Shown here piece after piece: positions 45,723 to 57,845 of a stretch of DNA of 64,000 nt (the stretch's first letter is position 1; each line of letters begins with the position of its first letter). The notes under the pieces are model-generated. The model had not been told where the DNA came from. It saw only the letters and a program-made list of their open reading frames with translations, and searched no databases. The stretch is from Sulfobacillus acidophilus DSM 10332 (GTDB taxonomy: Bacteria; Bacillota; Sulfobacillia; Sulfobacillales; Sulfobacillaceae): positions 2,882,270-2,946,269 of the forward strand of contig CP003179.1 of assembly GCA_000237975.1 (NCBI GenBank). The letters run 5' to 3'. Made by a program: the position numbers and the translations under genes.

Positions 45723-46619
45723 TTACGCCACCGAGGTTCCTTGTTCCACCGGAGTACCCGTCGACCGGGCGAACTCCTGAAACACGGCCATGAGGCGGCG
45801 GGTCACCGGACCCACTTGCCCATTACCGATGGGTCGCCCGTCACACGTCACGGCGGGAATTACTTCCGCGGCGGTTCCGGTTAAGAAACATTCATCTGCG
45901 TTATATAGATCGTGTAATGTAAAGTTTTCTTCCGCGACCCGATAGCCCTCGGCGAGCGCCAACTCCATAATTACCTTCCGGGTAATCCCGTTTAAAATAC
46001 CGGCTGAAGACGGCGGCGTAATGACCCGATTTTCCCGGACAATAAAAATGTTGTCGCCGGTTCCCTCGACAACATATCCTTGAGCATTCATGAGGACCAC
46101 TTCCGGCACGCCTCGCAAGTTTGCCTCGATTTTGGCCAAAATATTATTCAAGTAGTTCAGGGACTTCACGGCCGGGTTCAACACATCCCCGGACGGCCGC
46201 CGAATGGACACGGACGCAAGTGCCAAACCATTCTGATAGAACGTCTCGGGATATAACTGAATTTGGTCCGCCAAAATCAGCACGGTCGGTTCCGGACAGC
46301 TCCGCGGGTCGAGCCCTAAATCTCCGGCTCCGCGGGACACCACCAATCGAATATAAGCATCTTGTAGCTGGTTGATACGCACCGATTCCAACACTTTCTG
46401 GGACAGCTCCTCGGGAGTGTACGGGATCGTTAGCATCAACGTTTTGGCGGACGCATAGAGACGCGCCATGTGGTCCTCGAGTTTGAACACCCGCCCAGCA
46501 TAAGCACGAATCCCTTCAAATACCCCATCGCCATATAAAAAGCCATGGTCGAAAGGCGAGATTCTGACTTGACTGGCTAACACCCAATTTCCGTTAAAAA
46601 AGACGATTCGCTCACTCAT
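45723..46619 (-). CDS. ilvE: Branched-chain amino acid aminotransferase
   Basis: PLP-dependent class IV aminotransferase, 298 aa, catalysing the last step to Leu, Ile and Val. The PLP lysine lies in AVKSLNYLNNILAK; GDGVFEGIRAY and ECFLTGTAAEVIP are class signatures. It follows ilvB by 115 bp, so it is either the last gene of the ilv-leu operon or has its own weak promoter in that gap; I see no strong one. Confidence 0.95.
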   Translation of the reverse strand: MSERIVFFNGNWVLASQVRISPFDHGFLYGDGVFEGIRAYAGRVFKLEDHMARLYASAKTLMLTIPYTPEELSQKVLESVRINQLQDAYIRLVVSRGAGDLGLDPRSCPEPTVLILADQIQLYPETFYQNGLALASVSIRRPSGDVLNPAVKSLNYLNNILAKIEANLRGVPEVVLMNAQGYVVEGTGDNIFIVRENRVITPPSSAGILNGITRKVIMELALAEGYRVAEENFTLHDLYNADECFLTGTAAEVIPAVTCDGRPIGNGQVGPVTRRLMAVFQEFARSTGTPVEQGTSVA

Positions 46620-46734: not shown

Positions 46735-48396
46735 TCAACCCTCTAAGACCTCCGAGAGGGGTTTTCCGGCGGGAACCATAGGGTAGACCATCTCATTCTC
46801 GTTGATAAACACTTCCAAGAGGGCCGGTCCGTCCAGCGTGCTCATTTCGGTCAAGGCTCCGACCAAGTCGGCGTCGTTACCGACCGAAAATCCCGAGATG
46901 CCGAAGGCTTGCGCCAATTGCACAAAATCCGGATTCAAAAGATGGACGCCATGCCGCCGGTGACCATGAAAGAGATCTTGCCACTGGCGCACCATTCCGT
47001 GCCCCCCGTTATTCAGGAGCACAATCCACACCGGCAACTGATATTGCGCCAGCGTCGCGAGCTCCTGCAAATTCATTTGCAAGCTGCCGTCACCCGCCAC
47101 CAGGACCACTTTCCCGGCGGGATGGGCCAAGCGCGCTCCCATCGCTGCCGGCAACCCATAGCCCATGGTGCCGGCTCCTCCGGAGGTAATGAATCGGCGC
47201 GGCTTTTCACGGCCGATAAATAATGCGGCCCACATCTGATGCTGGCCCACATCGGTGACCACCACGTCGTCCGCATCCAAAAACTCCATCAGCTTCAACA
47301 ATGCTTGGGGTGAAGATAGGCGGCCTGGCGGCGCTCCCGGAACCCGCACGGGATGCTCGGTTTTCCAACGGGTAATCGTTTGCATCCATTCCTCATGACG
47401 TGCTTTAGGAATCCACCGGTCGAGATAAGGGAAAACGTCCCGCAGGTCTCCGTGAAACGTCACGTCGGGATGCACAATTTTCCGGATTTCGGCCGTATCC
47501 ACTTCCACATGGACAATTTTCGCTTTCGGCGCAAAACTAGCTACCTGCCCGGTGACCCGATCGTCGAACCGCGCCCCCAACGCAATAATGAGATCCGCTT
47601 CCTGCATGGCATGGTTAGCGGCCCAGGTTCCGTGCATCCCCAGCATACCTAAATAAAGCGGATTGGACGCGGGAAACGCCCCCAGCCCCATGAGGGTTGT
47701 CGTCACCGGTGCATGATACCGTTCAGCCAGCCGACGGACCCACACGGCCGTATCGCTCGCCGTGACCCCGCCGCCGACGTAAAATACCGGCCGTCGAGCC
47801 CGGTTCAAATAGGCTCGAAAGCGCGCCACCGACAACGGATTAGGCCGAAACGGCGGCCGCGAAGGCACCGGTTCCGGCAACACCGGCTGTTCTTCTAAAG
47901 CCAACTGCACATCTTTCGGTAGTTCAATCATCACCGGACCGGGACGGCCGGCACCGGCTAAATGATAAGCCTCGCTCACAATGCGGTAGACATCATCAAC
48001 CCGTTCGATCCGGTAACTGTGCTTGACGATCGACAAAGCCATGGTAAACAGGTCCGTTTCCTGAAAGGCATCGGATCCGATTAAAGTCGTCGGCACCTGC
48101 CCCACCAAAACCACCAGCGGGACCGAATCCGTCATAGCCGTCATGAGCCCGGTAATACCGTTGGTGCCCCCGGGTCCCGAGGTGACCAGTGCGATGCCTG
48201 GCCGTCCTTTGACTCGGGCATACCCGTCCGCCGCGTGAATCGCCGCCGATTCATGGCGCGTGACCACAAAATCGAGGTGGTCGCGGTGTTGGACCATGGC
48301 ATCAACCAGGGGCAATACCGCGCCTCCAGGCACCCCAAATACCGTGTCTGCCCCAAATTCGCATAGGACCTGCCAGACTCGCTCCGCTCCGGTCAT
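46735..48396 (-). CDS. ilvB: Acetolactate synthase large subunit
   Basis: ThDP- and FAD-dependent enzyme of Val, Leu and Ile synthesis, 553 aa from the ATG at 48396, which overlaps the leuB stop as ATGA and has AAGGAGG upstream. It shows FGVPGGAVLPL, the activating Glu in RHESAAIHAADGYAR, and the ThDP motif GDGSLQMNLQEL...NNGGHG. It is separated from its ACT regulatory subunit by leuB, leuA and ilvC. Acetolactate function is supported by the operon. Confidence 0.94.
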   Translation of the reverse strand: MTGAERVWQVLCEFGADTVFGVPGGAVLPLVDAMVQHRDHLDFVVTRHESAAIHAADGYARVKGRPGIALVTSGPGGTNGITGLMTAMTDSVPLVVLVGQVPTTLIGSDAFQETDLFTMALSIVKHSYRIERVDDVYRIVSEAYHLAGAGRPGPVMIELPKDVQLALEEQPVLPEPVPSRPPFRPNPLSVARFRAYLNRARRPVFYVGGGVTASDTAVWVRRLAERYHAPVTTTLMGLGAFPASNPLYLGMLGMHGTWAANHAMQEADLIIALGARFDDRVTGQVASFAPKAKIVHVEVDTAEIRKIVHPDVTFHGDLRDVFPYLDRWIPKARHEEWMQTITRWKTEHPVRVPGAPPGRLSSPQALLKLMEFLDADDVVVTDVGQHQMWAALFIGREKPRRFITSGGAGTMGYGLPAAMGARLAHPAGKVVLVAGDGSLQMNLQELATLAQYQLPVWIVLLNNGGHGMVRQWQDLFHGHRRHGVHLLNPDFVQLAQAFGISGFSVGNDADLVGALTEMSTLDGPALLEVFINENEMVYPMVPAGKPLSEVLEG

Positions 48397-49475
48397 GATG
48401 ACATGGCCTCCTTCCGATGAATTTGCTCCATTTGTTGTAGCACCCGGCCGGTAAAGCTTTCTGTCGTGTCGTGGCCGCCTAAATCCGGCGTTCGGTACCC
48501 TTCTTTTAAGGTGTCGCGAATCGCCTGGCGAATCCATTGGGCCGGTTCCCGATCCCCCCAGCTCCATTCCATCATCAAGGCCACCGATAAGATGGCGCCA
48601 ATCGGATTGGCAATACCCTGGCCCTGAATATCGGGAGCCGACCCATGCACCGGTTCGTAAAGCCCTCGGGACCCCTGAAGTCCGTTGACGGTCGCCGATC
48701 CCAAGAGTCCTAGACTACCAACCAGCCCACCGGCCAAATCACTTAGAATATCGCCAAAGAGGTTCTCCGTAACCACCACTTGATAAAGCTCGGGTTTTTT
48801 GACAAATTCCATCGCCGCGGCATCAACATACCGATGAATCACCGGAACATCGGGAAAGTCTTGCCGAACCTCCTCCACGGTTTGCCGCCAGAGCTTGGAA
48901 GTCTCCAGCACGTTGGCCTTATCGACCGATACCAGGGGCACCCCTTGGCGCTGAGCGACTTGAAAGCCCAACCGAACCACCCGTTCGATTTCGTGCCGAG
49001 CGTAGCGCGAGGTTTCCATGGCTTCAGGTTCCCCATTCACGACCGATCGTCCCCGCGGTTGGCCAAAATAAAGCCCCCCCAACAACTCCCGAATGATCAT
49101 GCCGCGTAAGTGTGGCCGCGCTAACGGGGAGAACGATTCCATCCCCTCAAACACTTCGAAGGGACGCAAGTTGGCCCAAAGCCCCATTCGAGCCCGTAGC
49201 GCCAACAAACCGGACTCCGGGTTTTTCGGATGACGGTCCCACTGAGGCCCTCCGACCGCCCCTAAAAATACCGTGTCGGCGCGATCGACCAAGGCCCGTG
49301 TCTCGCTCGGGAACGGATCACCGGTTCTGTCAATGGCCGCCCCGCCAATCAGGGCTTCTTGACGTTCGACCGCATAGCCGCCTTTTTGAGCCGCCCAATC
49401 CAACACCTTGAGCGCCGCATCCACCACTTCAGGTCCTATCCCGTCGCCTTTCAAAATGACCAGTGTCCGTGCCAT
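48393..49475 (-). CDS. leuB: 3-isopropylmalate dehydrogenase
   Basis: NAD-dependent oxidative decarboxylase of leucine synthesis, 360 aa. GDGIGPEVVDAAL at the start, NLRPFEVF, RELLGGLYFG (the ELTGGIYFG-type loop) and NLFGDILSDLAGGLVGSLG (metal/substrate loop) identify it. ATG at 49475. It lies 38 bp after leuA and overlaps ilvB by 4 bp. Confidence 0.96.
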   Translation of the reverse strand: MARTLVILKGDGIGPEVVDAALKVLDWAAQKGGYAVERQEALIGGAAIDRTGDPFPSETRALVDRADTVFLGAVGGPQWDRHPKNPESGLLALRARMGLWANLRPFEVFEGMESFSPLARPHLRGMIIRELLGGLYFGQPRGRSVVNGEPEAMETSRYARHEIERVVRLGFQVAQRQGVPLVSVDKANVLETSKLWRQTVEEVRQDFPDVPVIHRYVDAAAMEFVKKPELYQVVVTENLFGDILSDLAGGLVGSLGLLGSATVNGLQGSRGLYEPVHGSAPDIQGQGIANPIGAILSVALMMEWSWGDREPAQWIRQAIRDTLKEGYRTPDLGGHDTTESFTGRVLQQMEQIHRKEAMSS

Positions 49476-49513: not shown

Positions 49514-50686
49514 TTAGCCCACACTTTCGCTACGGCCGTGCACCTCATTGGACCAGAGAGCTTTCAGTTGCTCGTCATCCACCGCAATTTTGCTTTCGGC
49601 CAACGCCTTGACGCGCAGTTGCAACCGATGTAATTGGTCGGCCGTGTAACTGAGGCCCATGCGATCCAGCCGATCCCGCAGCGCATGCCGCCCGGAATGC
49701 TTCCCTAACACGAGTCGGCTGCCCTGCCCAATCAGCTCGGGGTTGATAATCTCGTACGTCCGCGGATCTTTCAGCATCCCGTCTTGATGAATGCCGGATT
49801 CGTGCCGGAAGGCGTTCTGCCCGACAATCGCCTTGTTCGGTTGTACGACCATCCCGGTGTACTGGCTGACCAACTGACTGGTTTGGTAGATAAACGGCAA
49901 CCGCACATGATGCTCCCGTCCGTAATAATCTTTCCGTGCGGTCAGCGCCATGACCACTTCTTCCAATGCCGCATTGCCGGCCCGTTCGCCAATCCCGTTA
50001 ACCGCCACCTCGACCTGACGGGCGCCCGCCTCCACACCGGCCAGCGAATTGGCTACCGCCATACCCAAGTCATCATGACAATGCACCGAAAAGACGACCG
50101 ATTCCGGGCATCGCTCCCGCACGTACCGAATCAATGCGCCGTATTCTTGCGGCATGGCGTAGCCGACCGTGTCGGGCAAATTGATCGTCCGTGCTCCCGC
50201 CGAAATGGCTGCGTTAGCCACCTTCACCAAAAAGTCGGGGTCCGAACGCGTGGCGTCCTCGGCGGAAAATTCCACGTCATCGGTATATTGACGAGCCAGG
50301 CTAACCGATTCCGTCACCGCCTCCAACACCTGTTCCGGTGTCATCTGCAGTTTGGCCCGCATATGCACGTCGGAAGTGGCGATGAACACGTGAATTCGTG
50401 GCTTCTTGGCCGACTCCAAAGCCTTGGCGGCTTTCATGATGTCTTGTGCCTGACAGCGGGCCAGCGCGGCAATGGCCGGGCCTTCGACTTCGCGAGCAAT
50501 CGTTTCCACCGCTTCAAAATCCCCTGCCGAAGCGGCGGGAAAACCGGCTTCCACGACATCGACTCCCAAAATCGCCAGCTGCTGGGCAATCGCCAATTTT
50601 TCGACCACCGTCAGGGCGACCCCGGGTGATTGCTCCCCGTCACGTAAGGTGGTGTCGAAAATATATACGGGACCGGCATCGTTCAT
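49514..50686 (-). CDS. leuA: 2-isopropylmalate synthase, short form
   Basis: Condenses 2-oxoisovalerate with acetyl-CoA, the committed step to leucine. The TIM-barrel domain is complete ([27 protein letters not shown] with the metal His pair, [15 protein letters not shown]). At 390 aa it ends about 120 residues short of the usual 510-520 aa and lacks the C-terminal LeuA regulatory dimer domain that binds leucine. The end is a normal stop, not a frameshift, and leuB follows closely. Feedback inhibition may be weak or absent. The homocitrate-synthase branch is an alternative, but the leu operon context favours LeuA. Confidence 0.9.
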
Positions 50687-51711
50687 GGGCGTACCTCCTC
50701 TTGCACTTCCTCCTCGACCGAAGGCTTCAGCCAGCTCATCATGGACCGTAATTCTTTCCCGACCACTTCAATGGGGTGTTGACGCGACTCTGCCCGCAAT
50801 TGATTGAAGACCGGACGTCCAGACCGGTTTTCGTCCATCCACGCCTTGGCAAACGTCCCGTTTTGAATCCGTTCGAGCACTTGACGCATCGTTTGCTTGG
50901 TTTCCTCGTTGACTAACGACGGTCCGACCGTCAACCCGCCATATTCCGCCGTATCCGACACCGAATACCACATGGCGCTGAGTCCACCTTCGTACATTAA
51001 GTCAACAATCAACTTCATTTCGTGAAGGGTCTCAAAGTAGGCGATTTCCGGTTGATATCCGGCATTGACCAAGGTTTCAAATCCCGATTGGATCAGGGAG
51101 GATACACCACCACAGAGCACTGTCTGCTCCCCAAACAGGTCGGTTTCGGTTTCTTCCCGAAACGTAGTCTCAATCACGCCGGCCCGTGTGGTGCCAATGC
51201 CTTTGGCATAGGCTAGGGCGAGATCGCGCGCCTGACCGCTGGCGTCTTGGTGTACCGCGACCAATGCCGGCGTCCCTTGCCCTTCGCGATATAACCGCCG
51301 AACCAGGTGCCCGGGAGCTTTCGGTGCTACCATGAATACATCCACATCGCCAGGGGGTTCAATTTCATGAAAATGAATGGCAAATCCATGCGCAAACGCT
51401 AATGCCTGCCCCGGACGCAAATACGGTTGGATCTCATTTCGGTATAAATCCGGTTGCACATGGTCGGGTGCTAAAATTTGAATGACATCGGCTTCTTTCA
51501 CGGCATCGGCGACATTCATCACGGTTAATCCGTCACGCACCGCCCGGTCCCGCGAGGAACCCGGCCGAATGCCCACGATGACGCGAACCCCGCTATCCCG
51601 CAGGTTTAATGCGTGCGCATGGCCTTGGCTGCCATATCCGATAATCGCCACCGTCCGGTTTTGCAATAAGGAAAGATCGGCATCTTGGTCGTAGTAAATT
51701 TTTGCGTTCAT
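50683..51711 (-). CDS. ilvC: Ketol-acid reductoisomerase
   Basis: Class I NAD(P)H-dependent enzyme converting acetolactate to dihydroxy acids in Val, Leu and Ile synthesis, 342 aa. [18 protein letters not shown] binds the cofactor; [13 protein letters not shown] and [12 protein letters not shown] hold catalytic residues. ATG at 51711 has AAAGGGG 8 nt upstream and overlaps the ilvN stop; its own stop overlaps leuA by 4 bp. Confidence 0.96.
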
Positions 51712-52034
51712 AAACAAGCCCCTTTCTTGATGTCAATGTTCATCCGCCGGACGTGCCAAGCCTTAAGAGTCGGTTTCACCCGGGCTGTTAGCGGTCGCCC
51801 GTCCTGATGGACGGTAATCTGGTAGATATCTTGATGCCGTGCCAATTGACGCGCCAATCGGCCGACGACTGCCTCACTCACCTCTACATCTACCGTGGCC
51901 CGAATCCGTCCCGCCTGCCGGTCACTGTGAAACGCTGCCGCTTCGACGTCAATATGCCGCTGCGCGAGTAGCGCGAAAAGCCGATGGGTCGCCCCTGGCA
52001 CAAGCGCCATTTCCACATCAATTCGATATCCCAT
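51708..52034 (-). CDS. ilvN: ACT-domain acetolactate synthase small-subunit-like protein
   Basis: 108 aa from the ATG at 52034 (AAAGGAGG 10 nt upstream). A single ACT domain (about residues 1-75) resembles the regulatory subunit of acetolactate synthase; the C-terminal ALS_ss_C domain of longer IlvH/IlvN forms is absent, so it is like the short IlvM/IlvN type. It is the first gene of the ilv-leu operon, right after the T-box terminator, while its presumed partner ilvB lies four genes downstream. The IlvN assignment is from fold and context. Confidence 0.78.
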
Positions 52035-52086: not shown

Positions 52087-52340
52087 AAAAAACCCTTTCC
52101 CCGACTGGGAAAGGGACGTATGCACGTGGTACCACCCTTCTTCCCTTTACAGCGTTTCCGCTCTAAAGGCTCGAAGATGGATAACGGCATCACCCGCTTT
52201 CGTCTCCATTCCCTTTACCAGAAAGAGAATTTCGGGAAAGAGCTCCGGGCCGAGAGGGCTTTCGGATCCGCTTAGGCTTACACCGTCCCTAAGTCGCTTG
52301 ATTCGGTCGCTTGAAAACCCATGTCCCTTCATTGCTGAAA
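52087..52340 (-). ncRNA. T-box leader of the ilv-leu operon (with terminator)
   Basis: tRNA-sensing leader RNA. The T-box sequence AGGGTGGTACCACG (52125-52138) is followed by a terminator (CCCTTTCCC / GGGGAAAGGG then six T's, 52087-52115). Upstream, CTTAGG / CCTAAG closes a loop with GGTGTAAG, like the apical loop of Stem I, and GGGTTTTC / GAAAGCCC can form a lower stem. I could not fix the specifier codon: ATC (Ile) in GGATCC and CTC (Leu) in GAGCTC are both candidates. Uncharged tRNA would stabilise the antiterminator and allow ilvN onward. Confidence 0.9.
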
Positions 52341-52347
52341 GCTGTAT

Positions 52348-52390
52348 AAAAAAACCCGCCACAAGTTCCGCCTCGAACTTGCCACGGGTC
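52348..52390 (-). terminator. Terminator of the ykkC-type riboswitch
   Basis: CCCGTGGCAAGTTC / GAACTTGTGGCGGG stem (one mismatch, two wobbles) followed by seven T's. Its 5' arm shares CCCGTGG with the 3' end of the aptamer, so aptamer folding and termination exclude each other, the logic of an ON switch. Confidence 0.88.
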
Positions 52391-52490
52391 TTTTATCCCC
52401 ACGGTGTAACCTACCTCGGTAGGCCTGTACCGCTTGGTCCTTCCTCTCAATGGAGGTGGATCCCTAGGTACACTTCGATTCTTTAAGAAG
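52381..52490 (-). ncRNA. ykkC-family riboswitch, probably ppGpp type
   Basis: Core ykkC elements in order: GTACCTAGGGATCC, GGACCAAGCGGTACAGG, TTACACCG and GGGGATAAAAGACCCG. A small hairpin CTTC/GAAG (52473-52490) precedes the core, like the extra P0 helix of the ppGpp and PRPP subtypes, and the core differs from the guanidine type. PRPP types usually control purine genes; ppGpp types control branched-chain amino-acid genes, often in tandem with T-boxes, as here. The ligand is therefore inferred from context. Confidence 0.85.
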
Positions 52491-52632
52491 CTATTGTGAT
52501 TCGATGAACAAATCAACGTGTTCGCGACCCTCTGTTTTGGTTTATGCGAGTCATTGACCGGAAATGTCACCAAAATCGGCAGGCCGCTTTTTATCATTGC
52601 TGGACCACGACGAACTATCGTGGTTTTGACTC

Positions 52633-52844: not shown

Positions 52845-54272
52845 ATGGGCCCGCGAACAATATTCGATAAAATCTGGGATGCTCATATCGTGTGGCAAGG
52901 ATCGACCGCTGAACCCACTCTCTTATATATCGACCGCCATTACGTCCATGAAGTGACATCACCGCAAGCCTTTGAGGGGCTTCGCAAAGAAGGCCGGACC
53001 GTCCGTCGGCCGGACCGGACCGTGGCGGTCATGGATCATAATGTGCCCACCAGCGACCGTTCATTGCCCATTCAAGACACTATCGCCAAACGGCAAATGG
53101 AACTATTGGCCGAGAATTGCCGGGAATTCGGCATTCCACTCTACGATCTGCACCACCCCGACCAAGGCATCGTCCACATTATTGGTCCCGAGCTCGGGCT
53201 GACCCAGCCGGGCATGACCATCGTTTGCGGAGACAGCCATACATCCACTCATGGCGCCTTCGGCTCGTTGGCCTTCGGCATCGGAACCAGTGAAGTGGAA
53301 CATGTGTTGGCCACCCAAACTTTATGGCAACAGAAGCCGAAGACCATGGAGGTCCGGTTCATTGGCGAGCGTCCGTTTGGAGTCACGGCAAAGGACATGA
53401 TTTTAGCCTTGATAGGCCAAATTACCACGGCCGGCGCTACCGGATATGTCATCGAATATACCGGCGATGCCGTCAAAAGCCTCTCGATGGAAGAGCGGAT
53501 GACCCTTTGCAACATGTCGATCGAAGCCGGGGCCCGGGCAGGACTGGTGTCACCGGACGAGACGACCATTAACTATTTACGGGGTCGACGTTTTGCCCCG
53601 GCCGACGACCAATTTGACGCTAAAGCGGCCGAATGGTTGGCGCTCGCCTCGGATCCGGGCGCATCTTACGATCGGGTGGTCGAAGTCGACTTACGCCGAC
53701 TCGCCCCGATGGTTACGTGGGGAACCTCCCCGGGTATGGTTTCCCCCATTACCGCGACGGTTCCCAATCCGGACGAGGCCGATGATGCCGATACTCGCGA
53801 GGCCATCCGCTATGCCCTCCAATATATGGATTTGCAGCCAGGCACCCCATTATCCGCGATTGCCATTGACCGGGTCTTTATTGGCTCCTGTACCAACGGA
53901 CGGCTGGAAGATCTTAAGCGGGCGGCCCATGTCATCCAGGGTAAGAAAGTCGCCCCGGGTGTGCGGGCCATGGTCGTCCCCGGCTCTGGGCAGGTTAAAC
54001 GGCAAGCCGAAGCGTTGGGCCTGGATCGGATTTTCACCGAAGCCGGGTTTGAATGGCGTGAACCGGGTTGCAGTATGTGTCTCGGCATGAATCCCGACAT
54101 CTTGTCTCCGGGCGAGCGCTGTGCCTCCACTTCTAACCGAAACTTTGAGGGCCGGCAAGGCCGCGGAGGCCGCACGCATTTGGTCAGTCCGGAAATGGCC
54201 GCGGCAGCCGCCATTTCCGGCCATTTCGTGGATATCCGAGAAATTATGGAAAACGAGGAGGTGCCGTCATGA
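52845..54272 (+). CDS. leuC: 3-isopropylmalate dehydratase large subunit
   Basis: Aconitase-family subunit with a [4Fe-4S] cluster, isomerising 2- to 3-isopropylmalate. 475 aa. Cluster cysteines lie in GSCTNGR and in the pair [17 protein letters not shown] and [13 protein letters not shown] are family signatures. AAAGGAGGGG precedes the ATG. Divergent from the ilv-leu operon and 4 bp overlap with leuD. Confidence 0.96.
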
Positions 54273-54862
54273 GGCCGCTGGTCCGCCACCATGGCATTGT
54301 CGCACCCTTAGACCGTGCGAATATTGATACCGACCAAATTATCCCCAAGCAATTCTTAAAGCGCGTCGAGCGCACCGGATTTGGCCAGTTTTTGTTTTAT
54401 GACTGGCGCACTTTGCCGAACGGCGAACCAAACCCTGAATTCCTCTTGAACCAAGCTCCCTATGACCACGCCTCCATCTTGGTCGCCGGTTCCAACTTCG
54501 GTTGCGGGTCGTCGCGGGAGCATGCTCCCTGGGCGCTGGAAGATTTCGGCTTTCGGGTCCTCATCGCCCCGTCCTTTGCCGACATCTTTTATAACAATTG
54601 TTTTCAGAATGGGATTTTACCCGTCACCTTGGCGGATTCGCAGGTCCGCCAATTAATCGCCCGGGCGACGGAAGAGCCCGGCTATCAACTCACGGTGGAT
54701 CTGGAAGCGGAAAAAATCTTCAGCGACGATCACACGATAGAATGGTCGTTTACCATTGATCCGTATCGCCGCGAAACCTTATTGCACGGGTTGGACGCGA
54801 TTGCCCGGACTTTGACTCTGGAAGAGGCCATCAGAGCTTATGAGGCGGCTCACCCACTTTAA
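54269..54862 (+). CDS. leuD: 3-isopropylmalate dehydratase small subunit
   Basis: Small, swivel-domain subunit of isopropylmalate isomerase, 197 aa. [18 protein letters not shown] and [17 protein letters not shown] are the family signatures. Starts inside the leuC stop (ATGA), so the subunits are coupled. The 3' end overlaps the convergent small membrane protein gene by 4 bp. Confidence 0.96.
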
Positions 54863-55146
54863 CCGGGGGGCCGCCTAGGCGGTAGCTGATCCGGGGGCGG
54901 AGGCTTCCGTCCCGAGAAAAAACCGGCCACAAATCCTAAGACAATACCTCCTAGCACGGGTTGCAAAGGGGATGCAGGGGGACCGACCCAAAGGACGGTC
55001 CCCCCTTCCGCTATAAGAGCGGCCATAACGCTGACCCCAATGACTATTCCCAACCGGAGCCCGCCAAAGGGCCGCCGGGATTTACCGAATACGGCCCCAA
55101 TGACCGCTGAGGACAGCGCCAACAACAACGCCAAAACCGTTTTCAA
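54859..55146 (-). CDS. Small membrane protein downstream of leuS
   Basis: 95 aa, not recognised. Three hydrophobic segments (about residues 3-20, 30-48 and 60-78) and a proline- and arginine-rich tail. The ATG overlaps the leuS stop by 4 bp, so it is translated in coupling with leuS. It resembles generic small TIGR/DUF membrane proteins, and no function can be given. Confidence 0.7.
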   Translation of the reverse strand: MKTVLALLLALSSAVIGAVFGKSRRPFGGLRLGIVIGVSVMAALIAEGGTVLWVGPPASPLQPVLGGIVLGFVAGFFSGRKPPPPDQLPPRRPPG

Positions 55147-57599
55147 GCCACCACCACATTTACCAGCCGGGTCGGAATGACAATGGTTTTGACCACACGG
55201 CGACCCTCTATTTGCGCTTGGAGATATTGCAGCGCCTCTTCCCGAATTCGCGTCTCATCCCAATCCGGGGTAATCACCATCCGTCCCCGTACTTTCCCGT
55301 TGACTTGCAGCGCAATCTCAATTTGACGTTCCTCTAACCATTTTGGATCGTAGTCCGGCCAAGCGGCGAGATGGACACTCTCCGTGTGACCCAAATGATG
55401 CCAGAGTTCCTCGGCCAAATGAGGGGCCATGGGCGCCAACAACAAGACCAGCGATTCCAGCACGTGCTGACGAAGCTCCGGCGAGACCTGCTCAATATCT
55501 TGGTACAGGGCATTCGTCAGTTCCATTAAGGCACTCACCGCCGTATTAAAGGCTCGCCGGTCGCCCAAATCCTCCGTCACTTTCTTAATCGCCCGCGCAT
55601 TCGCTCGCTGTACTCGTTCTTCGGCTTCCGGAGAGGAGGCACGAGCGTCCGCAAACGGGCGGGTTACCAGCCGATAGACCCGCTGCAAAAAGCGAAACGT
55701 GCCTTCGACCCCTTGCTGAGACCACTCGAAGTCTTTTTCCGGCGGGGCCGCAAATAACATGAAAAGCCGGGTGGCATCGGTACCCCATTCCCGTAAAATT
55801 TCTTCCGGGCTCAACGTGTTGCCCTTAGACTTCGACATCTTTGCCCCTTGATAGACCACCATCCCCTGTGCCAAGAGCCGCTTAAATGGCTCATCTACCG
55901 CCACCCAACCGGCGTCGTACAGTACTTTGGTGAAAAAGCGGGAATATAAGAGATGCAAAACGGCATGCTCTTTACCGCCGACATATTCATCCACCGGCAT
56001 CCAATAATTGGCCTGTTCGAAGTCAAACGGGCGATCTTGGGCCTCCGGCGAAGTGTACCGGAAGTAATACCAACTAGAATCGACAAAAGTGTCCATCGTA
56101 TCCGTTTCCCGCCGTGCAGGACCGTGGCAGACCGGGCATTCCGTGTTGACCCAGTCCTCCACTTGGGCCAAGGGCGAAGCGCCCCGACCCGTAAATACCA
56201 CATTTTCGGGGAGAAGAACCGGCAAATCCCGTTTGGGGACCGGCACCACACCGCAATGCGGGCAATGAATCATCGGAATGGGCGCTCCCCAATACCGCTG
56301 TCGGGAAATCAACCAATCCCGCATCCGGTAAGTAATCCGAGGCTTACCGCGTCCAATGGATTCCAGATGACGGCTTATGGCGCCTTTGGCTTCTGTGGAA
56401 GCCAACCCGCTGAAGCTTCCAGAGTTGATCAGCACGCCCGGTTCGACATAGGGTAAATCCGCCGACTGGCCGTCCGTCGGCTGAATGACGGGACGAATCG
56501 GCAGCTCGTATTTTGTCGCGTAATGGTAATCGCGCACATCGTGTGCGGGAACCCCCATGACGGCCCCCGTCCCATAATCGACCAGCACGTAGTTGGCTAC
56601 CCAAATCGGTAAGGCTTCGCCGGTTAAAGGATGTAATGCATAGGCGCCGGTAAACACCCCCCGCTTTTCGGTCGTCTCGCTGGTTCGCTCAATGTCACTA
56701 CGCACCCGTTCCGCCGCCACAAATTCGCGGACCTGGTTTTGTTCCGGTCGATTCTGAACGAGCTTTTCCACTAACGGATGCTCCGGTGCCAAGACGACAT
56801 AGGTCGCCCCGTAAAGAGTATCCGGTCGGGTCGTGAATACCCGGATGACATCGTCGAGCCCCTGCACCGGAAAATGCACTTCAGCGCCTTCGCTTTTTCC
56901 GATCCAGTGAATCTGCTGGGCTTTGATTTCATTCGGCCAATCAACCCGGTCTAGCCCCTCCAGCAACCGATCGGCATATTCCGTGATACGAAAATACCAT
57001 TGGGTGAGGTCGCGTTTGGTCACCACCGAATCACATCGCCAGCAGCGGCCGTCTTCCACTTGTTCGTTCGCTAAGACGGTTTCACAACTGGGACACCAGT
57101 TCACCGCACCCGCCTTTTGGTAGGCCAAGCCTCGCTCATAGAAAAGGAGGAATAGCTCTTGAGTAAACCGGTAGTAGTCGGGCAGACATGTAGTAACTTC
57201 CCGACTCCAATCAAACGATAAGCCCATTTGGCGCATTTGCTGGCGCATATAGTCAATATTATTCAGAGTGGAAATTTTAGGGGGAATACCATTTTTAATG
57301 GCAGCATTTTCCGCCGGCAATCCAAAGGCATCCCATCCCATGGGATGCAGAACACTATACCCGCGCATCCGGCGATATCGGGCAATCACATCCCCCAACG
57401 TATAGACACGCACATGGCCCATGTGCAAGTGTCCCGAAGGATAAGGAAATTGTTCTAAACAATAAAATTTTTGTCGGTCATCCGGGCGGGTCCGATATAG
57501 CGCATCTTTTTCCCACCGCTCTTGCCAAAAGCGTTCTACCGATTTGACGTCATAGTGGTCACGTTCCAATCGCCCCGTCGTTCCTGATTCTGTCTGCAC
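55143..57599 (-). CDS. leuS: Leucine--tRNA ligase
   Basis: Class Ia synthetase, 818 aa. HIGH-type motif PYPSGHLHMGH and KMSKS (KMSKSKGNTLS) are intact; the CP1 editing domain (about residues 220-420) is present with the TTRPDTLYGATY stretch. Zinc-type pairs CPSC/CWRC and CPHC/CPVC lie in the insertion. GTG start at 57599 with GGGAGG upstream. Controlled by the T-box at 57617-57845. Confidence 0.97.
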   Translation of the reverse strand: MQTESGTTGRLERDHYDVKSVERFWQERWEKDALYRTRPDDRQKFYCLEQFPYPSGHLHMGHVRVYTLGDVIARYRRMRGYSVLHPMGWDAFGLPAENAAIKNGIPPKISTLNNIDYMRQQMRQMGLSFDWSREVTTCLPDYYRFTQELFLLFYERGLAYQKAGAVNWCPSCETVLANEQVEDGRCWRCDSVVTKRDLTQWYFRITEYADRLLEGLDRVDWPNEIKAQQIHWIGKSEGAEVHFPVQGLDDVIRVFTTRPDTLYGATYVVLAPEHPLVEKLVQNRPEQNQVREFVAAERVRSDIERTSETTEKRGVFTGAYALHPLTGEALPIWVANYVLVDYGTGAVMGVPAHDVRDYHYATKYELPIRPVIQPTDGQSADLPYVEPGVLINSGSFSGLASTEAKGAISRHLESIGRGKPRITYRMRDWLISRQRYWGAPIPMIHCPHCGVVPVPKRDLPVLLPENVVFTGRGASPLAQVEDWVNTECPVCHGPARRETDTMDTFVDSSWYYFRYTSPEAQDRPFDFEQANYWMPVDEYVGGKEHAVLHLLYSRFFTKVLYDAGWVAVDEPFKRLLAQGMVVYQGAKMSKSKGNTLSPEEILREWGTDATRLFMLFAAPPEKDFEWSQQGVEGTFRFLQRVYRLVTRPFADARASSPEAEERVQRANARAIKKVTEDLGDRRAFNTAVSALMELTNALYQDIEQVSPELRQHVLESLVLLLAPMAPHLAEELWHHLGHTESVHLAAWPDYDPKWLEERQIEIALQVNGKVRGRMVITPDWDETRIREEALQYLQAQIEGRRVVKTIVIPTRLVNVVVA

Positions 57600-57616: not shown

Positions 57617-57845
57617 AAAAAAGCCCCTAGAAAGCCCTAGGGACGAGTATAACCCGCGGTACCACCCCGGTTAACGGCGCCAACGCACCGTTCGCTCCAT
57701 GCAACGCTAACGGATTGCCCCCGTGGATCTCCTCTGCTGAGAAAGCTCTAAGACTTATTGGCTCACACCATCCGCCAACTCTCTGAAAAGTCCCGTCAGC
57801 CGTAGGCAGAATCTTCGACCCATTCCTACGTTCACTGTCAGATAT
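57617..57845 (-). ncRNA. Leu T-box leader of leuS
   Basis: Canonical T-box RNA. Stem I has AGAGAGTTGGCGG and ATGGTGTGAGCC; the specifier reads CTC followed by A (CTC at 57739-57741), decoding leucine. The T-box core GGGGTGGTACCGCGG is at 57654-57668. The terminator CCCTAG / CTAGGG with a T-run is at 57617-57642. Uncharged tRNA-Leu(GAG) would allow read-through into leuS. Confidence 0.96.

Follow-up and report, generated by a model that had tools for sequence, protein, structure and literature searches.

Evidence for a tandem ppGpp riboswitch and leucine T-box leader before the ilv-leu operon of Sulfobacillus acidophilus

The ilv-leu operon of Sulfobacillus acidophilus DSM 10332 is very probably preceded by the ppGpp riboswitch of this strain, placed directly before a leucine-specific T-box. 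Tandem leaders of this type are known from branched-chain amino acid operons, and full expression would need both a shortage of leucine and the stringent response. The leader lies in a stretch of 64,000 nucleotides that was analyzed as a whole (the window), within a genome whose two replicons total 3,557,831 bases (3,472,898 in the larger one). The original prediction, made from the sequence of the window, described two RNA control units on the minus strand, each with its own intrinsic terminator. Matches to the Rfam families RF00442 and RF00230, together with U-tracts after both hairpins, place the two units where they had been described, and the motifs that the prediction quoted are present exactly. 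The tandem is real and its reading is supported, yet earlier publications already cover both the arrangement and the S. acidophilus ppGpp switch. The AND logic, which the prediction put forward as its own idea, is likewise prior knowledge.

Table 1. Features of the tandem leader and of the genes downstream, in window coordinates
Feature	Positions	Strand	Basis or remark
Tandem leader: ykkC-type aptamer and terminator, then T-box and terminator	52478-52087	minus	
ykkC subtype 2a (ppGpp) aptamer core, predicted: P1, P1a/P1b, P2, P3	52379-52478	minus	RF00442; helices kept in 22 family members
P0 5' strand UCGAA	52474-52478	minus	Pairs with 52377-52373 (UUCGA)
P3 with AUAAAAG loop; 3' strand CCCG common to P3 and terminator 1	52382-52404	minus	Sequence; fold by length
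Intrinsic terminator 1: hairpin AAAAGACCCG...CGGGUUUU, seven T at 52354-52348	52348-52394	minus	MFE comparison
T-box leader, stem I to antiterminator	52109-52341	minus	RF00230; kept in 22/22 relatives
Specifier codon CUC (leucine)	52253-52255	minus	Rfam alignment
T-box sequence AAGGGUGGUACCACG	52125-52139	minus	UGGU matches 3'-ACCA of tRNA-Leu(GAG)
Intrinsic terminator 2 (CCCTTTCCCAGTCGGGGAAAGGG and T6), competes with antiterminator	52087-52115	minus	Hairpin 52115-52093, then six T
First gene, small ACT-domain protein, ilvN-like	51711-52034	minus	Pfam ACT, E 1.3e-4, under curated cut-off; precedes ilvC
ilvC	50683-51717	minus	TIGR00465
leuA	49514-50686	minus	NF002086
leuB	48393-49475	minus	TIGR00169
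ilvB	46735-48396	minus	TIGR00118; listed ORF 46735-48567, homology from its codon 58
ilvE	45723-46619	minus	TIGR01122

Two complete RNA units in one leader

The covariance-model searches that had been proposed as a check matched both units. The first matched RF00442 (ykkC/Guanidine-I) over the full model at 52478-52379 on the minus strand with 39.9 bits (E = 1.7e-5 for a search of 901 nt and 1.6e-5 for the whole genome). The second matched RF00230 (T-box) at 52341-52109 on the same strand, again over the full model (positions 1-219), with 57 bits (E = 1.2e-11 and 1.1e-11, respectively). Both leader elements score lower than the Rfam gathering scores of 63 for RF00442 and 93 for RF00230, and neither was listed when the whole window was scanned with the Rfam defaults, because both are under the curated cut-offs. 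Nine of the 11 T-boxes in the genome with E < 1e-7 are under the gathering score as well, and default annotation would overlook them. Thus, the low score reflects where the threshold is set and is no sign of decay. Two further matches, one to PyrR over the T-box and its terminator (21.3 bits; gathering score, 54) and one to mir-247, were taken as chance.

The first unit has the ykkC core, with P1, P1a/b, P2, P3, and the AUAAAAG loop. Across 22 family members the aptamer helices are 96.4% paired, and changes on both sides of a helix were found in 48 cells, against a shuffle mean of 18.4. The 138-nt RNA comprising the aptamer and its terminator folds better than 200 of 200 shuffled sequences (z = -4.7). 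The original prediction had also noted a P0-like hairpin. The helix is present, not as a local hairpin but as a long-range helix between 52478-52474 and 52377-52373, which brings together both ends of the aptamer. This add-on helix (UCGAA/UUCGA) covaries: its fourth pair is A-U, G-U, or G-C inside the family, and a C-G pair changes to G-C in comparison with other families.

The second unit is, as predicted, a classic and complete T-box, with stem I, a specifier loop, an antiterminator with its UGGN bulge, and a competing terminator. All 22 family leaders carry the specifier CUC, which matches the regulated pathway. A cognate tRNA exists, because the genome encodes a tRNA-Leu with anticodon GAG whose A73 fits the UGGU of the T-box bulge. 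Since the T-box reads CUC, it is predicted to sense tRNA-Leu rather than tRNA-Ile or tRNA-Val; of the three tRNAs considered in the original prediction, only the first is retained. A second leucine T-box, at 57636-57824 on the minus strand, also aligns with a CUC specifier and leads leuS (55143-57599).

The units are separated by 6 nt, counted from the U-tract of terminator 1 to the start of the T-box. A simple scan for sigma-70-type promoters found none on the minus strand. Most relatives have a conserved block, TTGTT-N2-4-CGAATnAC, about 10 to 60 nt upstream of the aptamer (about 52490-52530 in the window), which is followed in some of them by TATAGT, and this block may hold the promoter. 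The genes leuC and leuD (52845-54862, plus strand) diverge from the tandem leader and have no recognizable leader RNA; they are therefore outside its control.

The ligand of the first unit

RF00442 is named Guanidine-I but covers the ykkC scaffold; the subtype was decided by three positions. P0 is specific for the ppGpp and PRPP subtypes, and the first unit has this helix. Residue 49 of the T. mathranii aptamer corresponds here to a pyrimidine, C52432, where guanidine-I riboswitches have A (PMC6031431), as does the genome's own guanidine-I copy (C1:1011131). The conserved G that is diagnostic of PRPP subtype 2b (G96 of T. mathranii) is absent, the sequence being CCCGUGGC here versus CCCGGGCGGG in nearby PRPP-type loci, with a gap in the alignment at this point. 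The unit also has C52406, the expected pairing partner of the guanine in ppGpp. Judged from the sequence, these diagnostic positions support subtype 2a, and guanidine-I and PRPP were both rejected on them.

Co-crystal structures with ppGpp have been published for the ppGpp riboswitch of S. acidophilus DSM 10332 (PDB 6DMC and 6DME; PMC10687018, PMC10112252, PMC7674647). A model built from the family (R1) found exactly one ppGpp-type ykkC copy in the genome, the locus described here, and the crystallized RNA is therefore in all likelihood this locus. The diagnostic positions, the operon, and the published structures all uphold the original assignment to ppGpp. A third ykkC match in the genome was weak (15.7 bits) and was taken as noise. 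The genome's one clear guanidine-I riboswitch (C1:1011131-1011224) scores 87.1 bits, and a guanidine-I crystal structure of S. acidophilus has been published (5T83).

Terminator 1 and the logic of the leader

Terminator 1, which alone folds to -28.7 kcal/mol, overlaps the 3' strands of both P3 and P0. When the growing transcript was folded by length, the complete four-way junction with P0 was predicted at 112 to 116 nt; from 128 nt, the P3 strand CCCG and the P0 3' strand are incorporated into terminator 1. The minimum free energy was -57.0 kcal/mol with the terminator versus -43.5 kcal/mol with the aptamer enforced. Because the terminator fold displaces the P3 and P0 strands, a ligand that holds the aptamer would be expected to turn transcription on, in agreement with the mode of action published for this riboswitch class.

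In the proposed mechanism, P3 and P0 would be given up when ppGpp is absent, terminator 1 would form, and RNA polymerase would halt about 130 nt into the leader. With ppGpp, the four-way-junction aptamer would be held together and the polymerase would pass terminator 1, after which the T-box would be transcribed. Uncharged tRNA-Leu(GAG), bound via the CUC specifier and the UGGU bulge, would then stabilize the antiterminator and prevent terminator 2, so that full ilv-leu expression would require both leucine shortage and the stringent response. The genome encodes a RelA/SpoT protein. Both units are in one leader with their own terminators and no promoter-like site between them, and with separate terminators and such a short gap, series (AND) logic is the natural reading. 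Expression with both signals only is a prediction. Binding of ppGpp is taken from the literature here, and we infer the AND response in the cell.

This leader provides a clean, naturally occurring case of two RNA inputs in series, with an atomic structure for the ppGpp half, and it would suit as a construct for measuring the predicted AND behavior.

Uneven maintenance of the first terminator in the family

The aptamer was found with model R1 in 22 of 34 family genomes. At all 22 loci a T-box follows 304 to 353 nt after the aptamer start and precedes ilvC. The same order recurs at ten loci from other families in the class, most of them with ilvC in reach, and in three family genomes that lack the aptamer a T-box stands alone before ilvC. 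Apparent "stops" in ilvC of some relatives were its normal C-terminus.

To compare U-tracts in these 22 genomes, the T residues among the 8 nt following each hairpin were counted. At terminator 2 every genome has 5 to 7 T. Terminator 1 has at least 5 T in 13 genomes, exactly 3 T in two of genus g10, and 0 to 3 T in seven of genera g4, g6, and g11. With a weak or missing U-tract in 9 of the 22, the first gate is unequally maintained across the family. Given the contrast between an uneven terminator 1 and a T-box terminator that is always kept, how strong the ppGpp gate is becomes an evolutionary question that can be tested.

Genera g6 and g11 (L119-L121, L126, L127, and L135) retain an intact aptamer core and anti-aptamer hairpin, but their terminator 1 lacks a U-tract, and in place of the U-tract there is a second conserved hairpin, GUGGGGC-loop-GCYCCRC, before the T-box. 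A simple two-terminator AND gate can therefore not be assumed there. Covariation of this hairpin is weak, with one compensatory change, and folding of six leaders in both states gave no consistent switch linking it to T-box stem I. One rather unlikely explanation is that in these two genera, over six genomes, the ppGpp aptamer, retained along with its anti-aptamer hairpin and the second hairpin that abuts the T-box, has ceased to drive an intrinsic terminator and that ppGpp acts on the T-box or on elongation in some other way. The tandem would then not be two independent gates.

Alternative explanations

Scores below the Rfam gathering thresholds might suggest that the aptamer and the T-box are chance resemblances or a decayed, functionless relic. 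On present evidence this is not tenable, and we give it practically no credence: the E-values, the conservation with covariation in 22 genomes, the invariant specifier and antiterminator, and the constant place before ilvC all argue against it, and most of the genome's confident T-boxes are likewise below the threshold. For the first unit, an identity as a PRPP (subtype 2b) or guanidine-I aptamer instead of a ppGpp aptamer is very improbable, even though Guanidine-I is the sole matching Rfam family and subtypes 2a and 2b are very alike (PMC6031431). The residue at 52432 differs from that in the genome's guanidine-I copy, the G needed for PRPP is absent, and the ppGpp co-crystal of this strain is published. 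Furthermore, none of the PRPP-type relatives in the class lies ahead of ilv or leu genes.

A more serious, though still unlikely, alternative to the ppGpp-leucine AND gate is that the units do not act in series, with an internal promoter or a leaky terminator 1 leaving the T-box as the sole effective control and ppGpp as a minor modulator. Terminator 1 without a U-tract in seven relatives and weak in two, next to a U-tract at terminator 2 in all 22, would be consistent with this possibility, as would the two genera that have a T-box alone before ilvC. However, terminator 1 is strong in the window, in both its calculated stability and its run of seven T, and the 6-nt gap, with no promoter-like site on the minus strand, indicates that the two units are read in series.

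Comparison with known leaders

Leaders that join a ppGpp riboswitch and a T-box(Leu), whichever of the two comes first, have been published with separate expression platforms and a predicted AND logic (PMC9481103, PMC6031431, PMC5912903), with 15 cases in the order seen here and 16 in the other (PMC9481103, Table 2). The tandem leader was shown as an AND gate in one of these reports (PMC5912903) and discussed in another (PMC6031431), and all three call the AND behavior a prediction (PMC9481103, PMC6031431, PMC5912903). The S. acidophilus locus is not different in kind from these leaders. It has the same RNA classes in the order of the 15 published cases, separate platforms, a leucine T-box, branched-chain amino acid genes, and the same predicted logic. 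In other families of the class the P3-P0 junction is CCCGNGCGGC or CCCGGCGGC, and the one here, CCCGUGGC, is shorter by one to two nucleotides. Such tandem leaders were reportedly described by Sherlock et al. in 2018, and the count of them dates from 2022. Peselis and Serganov are said to have presented the structures of the S. acidophilus DSM 10332 ppGpp riboswitch in 2018 (PDB 6DMC, 6DMD, and 6DME); the strain is the same as the one examined here, with its single ppGpp-type copy.

The leucine T-box leaders of ilv-leu and leuS genes share with this locus the class I T-box, the CUC specifier, the UGGU bulge, and the intrinsic terminator; unlike in those leaders, a second, independent riboswitch precedes the T-box here. 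Guanine/PRPP tandem riboswitches are likewise tandem leaders with a ykkC subtype 2 aptamer. However, they have one shared expression platform and form an IMPLY gate, whereas each unit of the S. acidophilus leader has a terminator of its own.
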